Source of the DNA: an uncultured Rubritalea sp.
GTDB taxonomy: Bacteria > Verrucomicrobiota > Verrucomicrobiia > Verrucomicrobiales > Akkermansiaceae
Assembly (NCBI GenBank): GCA_937981665.1
Contig: CALJOJ010000007.1
Location: 1 to 64,000, forward strand
Direction: 5' to 3'
DNA length: 64,000 nucleotides
Shown: positions 229 through 3,766 of the stretch, one piece after another
Layout: each line of letters opens with the position of its first letter
Numbering within the stretch: the stretch's first letter is position 1
Notes under the pieces: generated by a model
Told to the model about the DNA's origin: nothing
Databases searched by the model: none
Seen by the model: the letters and a program-made list of their open reading frames with translations, nothing else
Translations under genes and position numbers: made by a program

Positions 229-260
229 CAAAAAAGGCCACAGCGGAATGCCGTGACCTT
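229..260 (-). terminator. Rho-independent terminator
   Basis: On the minus strand an AAGGTCACGG arm pairs with CCGCTGTGGCCTT, with two G-U pairs, around a short ATT-type loop, and is followed by a run of six T. It lies 26 bases past the stop of the gene at 286-1197 and would end that transcript. A second small GAGCG/CGCTC hairpin lies just beyond it. Confidence 0.75.
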
Positions 261-285: not shown

Positions 286-1197
286 TTACTGAAGCTTCTT
301 TTTAAGCTCTTCCTCTTCAGCCGTCTGTTTAGCTAGGACTTCTTGCCACTTCTTAGCATTAGCCTGACTAGCTTCATCTAACTTATCGAGAGTGAAGGAA
401 AACTTCTTCCTGGCGTAACCAGCCTTATTCACTTCTAGATTAAGCGTTTCACCGAGAAGAGACACGAATTTAGCATCTATAGCTTTACCAGCAGAACTTG
501 TCCAAGTTTCTGATTCAGGGAAAGTGAATCCAGCTCTCAATTCTTTGAGCTGCTTACCAAATTTAATCTCCTCAAGCGCACCAATATATCGCTTAGCAAA
601 TTTTACTCCACCTGGCTGGATATCAGCAAATTTTAGAATTTTTGGTTTCTTACCAGTTTTGATGATGACTCCATCTTTAGTCAGACCATGCATTTCAGTC
701 GTCTTATAAAAACCACTTTCATTCACATACCACTTAAATATAGTTGGTTGCTTCGGGGCTTCGCCACCTTCTAAAAAGCTATCTACTGCATCAGTAATCA
801 CCTTATAATTACCAGATTTACCAGCAGCGCTCCCTGCCAGACTACCGAGTATCGTATTCCCATCAGGCGAAGTAACGATAACCTGCGGAGTGAGCATAAG
901 TCCTTTCGCACTCAACTTCATCTGCGAAGCCACCAGCGGTGAACCATTTTTATAAAAAACTTTATCAAAACCTAATTCAATGACTACGAATTTTTTTCCT
1001 GCATTTTTTAGAGCTGCCGCACGGGCAGCTACATTTGGGCCTCAACCAGATTTTCAGCCAAAGACGTAAGCAACTCCTTTAACGGCTTTTTCAGCCGCAG
1101 CAAACGCCTCTTCTTCCTCTGTGATCTTGTAGTTCTTCCCAAAACAGAAAGACGCACTAGCCACACCAGCTAAAGTGAATAATATTAAGTTTTTCAT
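286..1197 (-). CDS. Secreted thioredoxin-like / SHD1-like protein with two in-frame TGA codons (candidate selenoprotein)
   Basis: Read from the ATG at 1197, the frame stays open for 304 codons to a TAA at 286, except for TGA at codon 48 (1054-1056) and codon 52 (1042-1044). Residues 1-20 form a signal peptide (MKNLILFTLAGVASA). Residues about 30-150 look like a thioredoxin fold: a strand AYVFG, then the site *KSG*GPN, a helix, the strand FVVIE, and LTPQVIVTSPDGN, with a proline where the cis-Pro usually sits. Residues about 230-300 (ETWTSSAGK, IDAKFVSLL, FSFTLDKLDE) resemble the SHD1 domain seen in secreted proteins of this group. The first TGA sits four residues before the second, and the second aligns with the first Cys of a CGPC-type site. 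A hairpin follows at SECIS spacing. Options are selenocysteine (UxxxU), TGA read as Trp, or a pseudogene. A shorter reading from GTG at 933 would lose the signal peptide and active site and is less likely. Confidence 0.6.
1012..1030 (-). promoter_or_regulatory. SECIS-like hairpin downstream of in-frame TGA
   Basis: On the coding (minus) strand, AGCTGCC and GGCAGCT form a perfect 7-bp stem around the loop CGTGC. The stem begins 11 nt after the second TGA (1042-1044), so the loop begins 18 nt after it. Bacterial SECIS elements lie inside the reading frame just after UGA at this spacing and usually have a G in the first two loop positions, as here. The bulged U of the E. coli fdhF element is absent. 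The stretch encodes Ala-rich VAARAAAL, so the pairing could be chance. Confidence 0.4.
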
Positions 1198-3119: not shown

Positions 3120-3586
3120 TACTCGCACCCTCCTTCACACTCTATCTCTTTATTCTTCTTTTGCTCTGCCTCTATCTCATCTGTGATTTCCTTATTCTTC
3201 TTACGGAAAAACAACTTACTTATTTTGAAACGATGATTACTCACAAGATAACAAAATTTCTTAGCCATCGGAAGTAGTAGCTTACTATTCATCTTCTTAG
3301 CCACGTCCTGATACTTATTACACGACCACAGACAACACACCCAACCTTCGCCTCCTTGATAAACCACTTCTCCATCTACTCTCACAACCATCATTTTTTC
3401 AGGATGATAATCAACAAGCCCAGGAAATACAGTCTCAGCCTCGCCGCTCTGGTAGTCATAGCTCACCAGCTCACAAGCACGCTCTTGTTTCTCTAGCCAC
3501 TCTATAAAAGTGCAGCACATACCACAACGTGTATCATAGAACACCTCTATCGTTTTAAATGCCTTATGTAAGTTTACCGCCTTCAT
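3119..3586 (-). CDS. DCC-family (DUF393) thiol-disulfide oxidoreductase-like protein
   Basis: 155 residues from the ATG at 3586 (MKAVNLHKAF); a TTG at 3637 would add 17 residues. The early motif VFYDTRCGMCCTFIEWL fits the DCC family pattern (YDxxCxxC, a thioredoxin-like fold with a redox Cys pair). A further CCLWSC cluster lies near residue 85, and a Lys/Glu-rich tail ends in two Cys. Members are thought to act in membrane-linked thiol chemistry, but the true substrates are unknown. It is the first gene of the group ending at 1306 and overlaps the next gene by one base. Confidence 0.7.
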   Translation of the reverse strand: MKAVNLHKAFKTIEVFYDTRCGMCCTFIEWLEKQERACELVSYDYQSGEAETVFPGLVDYHPEKMMVVRVDGEVVYQGGEGWVCCLWSCNKYQDVAKKMNSKLLLPMAKKFCYLVSNHRFKISKLFFRKKNKEITDEIEAEQKKNKEIECEGGCE

Positions 3587-3766
3587 TATATTTTCAGTAA
3601 ATACTGAAAACACAATATTGTCAACACGGTATTCCAATAAACGATCAAAGAGCGCGCTTACAACAGTGAGATTAGAACAAGGAAAACCAAGGATATGAAG
3701 CTTCAGAGCATCCTCTGTAAATGCATACCAAAGCTCTGATAAGGCCGTCAGGAATAAAGAAAATTT

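Follow-up and report, generated by a model that had tools for sequence, protein, structure and literature searches.

How should a bacterial gene be read when its frame is interrupted twice by TGA, and both interruptions fall at what looks like a redox active site? The question is raised by a locus in the first 64,000 nucleotides of a contig of an uncultured marine Rubritalea sp. (GenBank assembly GCA_937981665.1, contig CALJOJ010000007.1), and 'the window' refers throughout to this whole stretch. An earlier note, made from the letters of the window alone, had proposed a thioredoxin-like selenoprotein with selenocysteine (Sec, U) at both TGA codons in a new UxxxU arrangement, with tryptophan at both as the alternative.

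Reading frame and domain architecture

Translation of the reverse-strand frame from the ATG at 1197 to the TAA at 286 gives 303 residues and a stop, and bears out the statement that it is open but for TGA at codons 48 (1056-1054) and 52 (1044-1042), which lie in the active-site stretch VFG-U-KSG-U-GPN. No second long frame overlapping it was found among the open reading frames at the locus. Table 1 lists the parts of the gene and its surroundings.

Table 1. Features assigned to the locus, in window coordinates
Feature	Position	Strand	Basis or remark
Gene of predicted double-Sec thioredoxin-like protein	286..1197	-	Translation; full-length relatives G034, G040, G007, G053
Probable signal peptide, codons 1-20	1138..1197	-	By eye: basic n-region, hydrophobic core
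Thioredoxin-fold domain, about residues 22-145	763..1134	-	Predicted models, Foldseek
UGA codon 48, predicted Sec	1054..1056	-	End of strand preceding active-site helix
UGA codon 52, predicted Sec, first position of CxxC-type site	1042..1044	-	Column common to relatives' UGA/Cys
Codon 55, Asn	1033..1035	-	Resolving Cys there in all single-UGA relatives
bSECIS-type hairpin	1012..1030	-	Fold energy; register and covariation with relatives
Pro104, probable cis-Pro of thioredoxin fold	886..888	-	Invariant in aligned relatives; cis state inferred
First SHD1-like region, long-form members only	553..705	-	Aligns with L010, L011, L013, L014
C-terminal SHD1-like domain, about residues 228-285	343..516	-	Sub-cut-off PF03983 in relatives; high model confidence
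Intrinsic-terminator-like hairpin	234..260	-	11-pair stem and T tail; pattern match only

The signal peptide of the window protein (MKNLILFTLAGVASASFCFG), already suggested in the earlier note, was judged by eye, not by a predictor, and is put no higher than probable. The sole Cys of the protein, C18, lies inside it; the mature protein is Cys-free, so Sec would be its only redox pair. The thioredoxin-type fold that had also been inferred is supported with modest model confidence, the predicted model showing a beta-alpha-beta-alpha-beta-beta-alpha order with pLDDT below 50 at residues 50-52, around the active site. In the case of the Rubritalea marina homolog, the model has a thioredoxin fold with pLDDT of about 90 in that domain, U59 immediately before helix 60-73 and Pro107 immediately before strand 108-112. 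The criteria applied to the fold (a redox residue at the N-end of the first helix of the active site, Pro ahead of the next strand) are therefore clear in the R. marina homolog and modest in the window protein, where Pro104, invariant in two alignments of relatives (A1, A6), is followed by a strand. Foldseek neighbours comprised thioredoxins, a Xylella disulphide isomerase, DsbH, AGR2 and B. subtilis YphP. By motif, the relatives pass the CxxC/UxxC criterion, whereas the window protein fails it (UxxxUGPN, with no Cys at +3); it also fails the UxxU criterion of two Sec at CxxC spacing, its own spacing being UxxxU.

Searched alone against PDB, Pfam and NCBIfam, the window protein gave no meaningful match, and no NCBIfam or Pfam model reaches its cut-off for the family. 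The SHD1 (PF03983) assignment of the earlier note holds only in a weaker form: Pfam SHD1 has no match on the window protein and scores 13.8-17.8 bits in relatives against a gathering cut-off of 23.7, so that 'SHD1-like' is carried by the relatives, and for the first such region, which lacks a Pfam match, the name is inferred. PF13899 (Thioredoxin_7) gave a sub-cut-off match in a Cys homolog and in one Sec homolog. Downstream, the terminator-like hairpin sits 26 bases past the TAA, which fits a transcription unit that ends after codon 303 and serves the whole frame.

Selenocysteine machinery and genetic code of the source genome

A search of the genome for selA, selB, selC and selD, the check proposed with the original suggestion, found all four above their cut-offs: the tRNA-Sec scored 60.4 bits (cut-off 47) and has the anticodon UCA, while selB scored 271, selA 498 and selD 384 against curated cut-offs of 242, 268 and 125, respectively. 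The selD frame (L195, G000:C4:4148-5074) itself has an in-frame UGA, in VSCGGUASK, the known Sec site of SelD. The selD of the source genome is thus probably a selenoprotein too, and would be an independent case, at a known position, in which UGA seems to stand for Sec in this genome. A scan of the 64-kb window for further genes with UGA and a hairpin gave no candidate.

If UGA were instead decoded as Trp in the source organism, or generally read through, the site would become GWKSGWGPN. The genetic code was checked in 65 open reading frames, each 200 aa or longer, sampled from roughly 106 kb of the source genome (the window, L025, L035 and L036). TGA is nearly unused as a stop in this set (44 TAA, 20 TAG, 1 TGA), as such a reading would lead one to expect, but none of the other intact genes sampled has an interior TGA under the Trp reading, and TGG is used 285 times, which argues against a general recoding of UGA to Trp. 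It also speaks against this explanation that the aligned site is occupied by Cys and not by Trp in relatives, that the UGAs coincide with redox positions and hairpins, and that the UCA anticodon belongs to tRNA-Sec. Trp recoding was rejected on the sampled intact genes, and the explanation as a whole, readthrough included, retains hardly any credence.

A family of relatives with predicted selenocysteine at the first redox position

A tblastn search in 58 relatives returned four full-length relatives, and in each of them the only TGA corresponds to the U of UGPC or UGSC; relatives align with the window protein over its full length at 25-31% identity. A profile of the N-terminal domain matched 130 of 260 genomes of the taxonomic family, and further searches in samples at order, class and phylum level found the thioredoxin-like family spread across the order and rare in the class. 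From 71 genomes, 85 UGA-bearing members were analysed, including ones from the named strains Rubritalea marina DSM 17716 and Roseibacillus ishigakijimensis KCTC 12986. In 80 of these the single UGA occupies the first redox position, as UxxC without exception; the remaining 5, from three lineages, have two UGAs. Homologs with Cys occur as well (CPLC, CPKC, CGLC and others).

Codon 52 of the window aligns exactly with the UGA of the 80 relatives and with the Cys of the Cys homologs, in agreement with the earlier alignment of the second TGA with the first Cys of CGPC. The homologs thus have TGA or Cys at this site, and four members other than the window protein have an extra TGA upstream. Scattered further stops in homologs, which would have refuted the original proposal, were not encountered. 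That proposal had missed the large UxxC family, the covarying in-frame bSECIS and the pairing of the second UGA with loss of the resolving Cys. Cys at +3 is present in 80/80 single-UGA members and 0/5 double-UGA members (Fisher p 3e-8, rows taken as independent).

The same comparison bears on whether one or both TGAs could be assembly or sequencing errors. The source assembly (2.7 Mb) is in 107 contigs, the double-UGA gene lies near a contig end and the raw reads are unchecked, all of which leaves room for a mistake. However, the TGA at codon 52 is common to 80 relatives, named strains included, and a mistake at codon 48 would leave the missing Cys at +3 unexplained, so that we regard error as very improbable.

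A conserved bSECIS-type hairpin

The hairpin just 3' of codon 52 in the window has a 7 bp stem (AGCUGCC/GGCAGCU), a CGUGC loop and a folding energy of -11.8 kcal/mol. Its loop begins 18 nt past UGA52 and 30 nt past UGA48. Published limits for bSECIS elements are a loop of 3-9 nt, a stem of 4-16 bp, G in the first two loop positions, a distance of 16-37 nt from the UGA and an energy of -7.5 or lower (PMC13188914), and the window hairpin satisfies them for UGA52 and UGA48 alike. Taken by itself, folding energy was not accepted as evidence for the hairpin, that of the window being only modestly better than shuffled sequences (z -1.4).

The conservation of the hairpin was observed across relatives. 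In 22 sequences, 84.4% of cells were paired, versus 71.7% (sd 1.8) when shuffled and at most 48% when slid, and 6 of the 7 stem pairs had changes on both sides (compensatory). In one class of members the loop GU forms the 20th and 21st bases after the UGA in 33/34 cases; in the other class it comes three bases later. A strict rule (6 of 7 pairs and GU at +19) was met at 31 of 86 active-site UGAs, all five double-UGA genes included, versus 13 of 22801 other codons of the same genes, and in the second register it was met at 29 further active-site UGAs. The hairpin is not formed in Cys homologs (43% paired).

UGA48 and UGA52 are separated by only 9 bases, too short a gap for a second hairpin between them, which would leave both UGAs dependent on a single hairpin; such sharing is inferred. 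A different possibility is that only UGA52 is decoded efficiently and UGA48 acts mainly as a selenium-sensitive stop, with full-length protein made only at high selenium. At 30 nt from the loop, UGA48 is within the published 16-37 nt (PMC13188914) and farther away than UGA52 at 18 nt, as this possibility would have it, yet the full-length product would still require Sec at position 48, which makes the distinction from decoding at both codons a matter of degree, without efficiency data. We consider it quite unlikely.

Double-UGA members and the origin of the second UGA

The double-UGA site of the window, UKSGUGPN (UxxxUGPN), has counterparts with other spacings: ULSGSUGST (G267), ULGVSUGST (G270) and ULSIGUGST (G269), all UxxxxUGST, and UGNUGPA (UxxUGPA) in another family (L185, G053), where the UxxU sits upstream of the GPA position. 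The extra UGA of G267, G269 and G270 (L072-L074) falls in the same alignment column as window codon 48, and that of L185 falls in the neighbouring column, in the same loop. The site of codon 48 has UGA in four relatives and is otherwise not Cys. A scan of all loci for neighbouring TGA pairs returned mostly noise but confirmed L185. With codon 52 in the UGA column of 80 relatives and codon 48 in the loop that holds the extra TGA of four others, the earlier argument that the two TGAs did not arise by chance gains support.

In trees, the five double-UGA members take three positions, corresponding to three changes; a single origin is neither shown nor rejected (AU p 0.19). The window protein belongs to the long form and has two SHD1-like regions, whereas the other double-UGA members are short forms, which favours separate gains of the second UGA. 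The pair from G267 and G269 (L072/L074) has kept both UGAs at 61% identity, with dN/dS of about 0.20 before the site and 0.22 after it. For the window copy, selection is not measurable: its branch is very long (2.3-3.0 changes per column), the searched genomes yielded no close relative, and the exact UxxxU spacing is not shared by any relative with more than 31% identity.

That long branch and unique spacing, and the lack of a detectable copy in several genomes of the same genus, are what a decaying pseudogene might show. In such a copy, Sec would be ancestral at codon 52, and a nonsense mutation would have arisen by chance at codon 48, leaving residue 47 as the last one translated. Against this, the 303 codons contain no further stop or frameshift, the hairpin is intact with its own paired stem, the extra UGA lies in the same loop as in the four other double-UGA members and comes with the same Cys loss, and a terminator-like hairpin follows the TAA. 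A pseudogene is therefore unlikely, though of the alternatives considered it is the one we would least readily dismiss.

Proposed function and mechanism

Taken together, the Sec machinery, the recurrence of the UGAs and the hairpin support the reading of the earlier note, and we think it quite probable that the gene encodes an exported thioredoxin-like selenoprotein in which UGA48 and UGA52 are both Sec, a Sec-Sec pair replacing Sec-Cys. Sec insertion is predicted here without protein, selenium or ribosome data. In the proposed mechanism, SelB with Sec-tRNA would be recruited by the single bSECIS hairpin just 3' of UGA52 and would decode both UGA48 and UGA52 as Sec. Sec52, at the N-end of the active-site helix, would be the attacking residue, and Sec48, four residues upstream, would stand in for the resolving Cys lost at +3 (Asn55). 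The pair would probably cycle between diselenol and diselenide, the formation of the latter being inferred, as are the substrate and the cellular location. A likely function, again by inference, is that of an exported disulfide reductase or isomerase acting through the Sec-Sec pair, with a putative periplasmic role in disulfide reduction or isomerisation, or in the reduction of oxidised substrates.

For the family as a whole, we lean towards an order-wide secreted selenoprotein family in which Sec-Cys has been replaced by Sec-Sec, perhaps three times independently, a gap of two, three or four residues separating the second, upstream Sec from the first, and a single bSECIS serving both UGAs.

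Comparison with known selenoproteins

Among Sec-Sec redox pairs in a thioredoxin-like fold, SelL reportedly provides a precedent; it differs in being eukaryotic, in its UxxU spacing and in its eukaryotic SECIS, located in the 3' UTR. The Thioredoxin_7/DsbH/AGR2-like thioredoxin-fold proteins, the best structural neighbours, differ in being Cys-based and in having no SHD1-like domain. Thioredoxin and thiol:disulfide oxidoreductase selenoproteins with UxxC have already been listed (PMC13188914, PMC9312934); the 80 relatives share their state, with a thioredoxin fold, Sec at the first redox position and a bSECIS just downstream. Unlike these, the window family has no Pfam or NCBIfam match at cut-off and carries SHD1-like C-terminal domains, and the mature window protein lacks Cys but has a further predicted Sec, placed four residues upstream.

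Two closely spaced Sec in a redox motif are also known from UxxU selenoproteins, namely a Prx-like thiol:disulfide oxidoreductase, the metal-binding NF041115 and an FmdB-type protein (PMC13188914), as well as GOS Prx-like 2 (PMC2398784). In those, Sec occupies both CxxC positions and the CxxC spacing is kept, whereas here the extra Sec precedes the UxxC position and is separated from it by three residues in the window and by four or two in relatives. The novelty claimed in the earlier note therefore extends to the UxxxU (and UxxxxU) spacing and not to double Sec as such. A text search of a 2026 review of prokaryotic selenoproteins found UxxU listed, with no SHD1 or Verrucomicrobia entry (PMC13188914), and no literature on UxxxU, UGPC, a Rubritalea selenoprotein or a Verrucomicrobiota SECIS was found, in a search of partial coverage that is not proof of absence. 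Within that coverage, both the thioredoxin-like selenoprotein family, which we did not find described, and the unreported spacing of its Sec pair appear new.

If the double-Sec reading is true, the redox motif of the family is an unusual one, and its members form a natural series in the size of the diselenide loop. Each UGA carries a cost in translation efficiency, which is why active sites with more than one Sec are rare. The presence of single- and double-Sec members in one family lets the gain from a diselenide be compared directly with that from a selenenylsulfide, and lets one ask whether a single bacterial SECIS suffices to decode two neighbouring UGAs placed at set distances. The family, found in Verrucomicrobiota including cultured Rubritalea and Roseibacillus, is unnamed in current libraries, and automatic annotation would probably split such genes in two or label them pseudogenes.

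Genomic context of the family

Upstream of the window gene, a DCC1-like thiol-disulfide oxidoreductase gene (3122-3637, reverse strand) lies in a run that also holds an epimerase gene and two small open reading frames without a Pfam match; as a clue to the substrate, the DCC1-like gene is a weak hint at best. No matches to the family were obtained by tblastn in plasmids and phages. One UGPC member (L187, G053:C33) carries TAG as its codon 19, inside the signal peptide region, and is possibly a decayed copy or has a later start. Two UGA-bearing members, L082 and L058, are adjacent in tandem in one relative (G006:C51), and G220:C2 also has two. The long-form members L011 and L014 (in G040 and G053) adjoin a rho-like gene.
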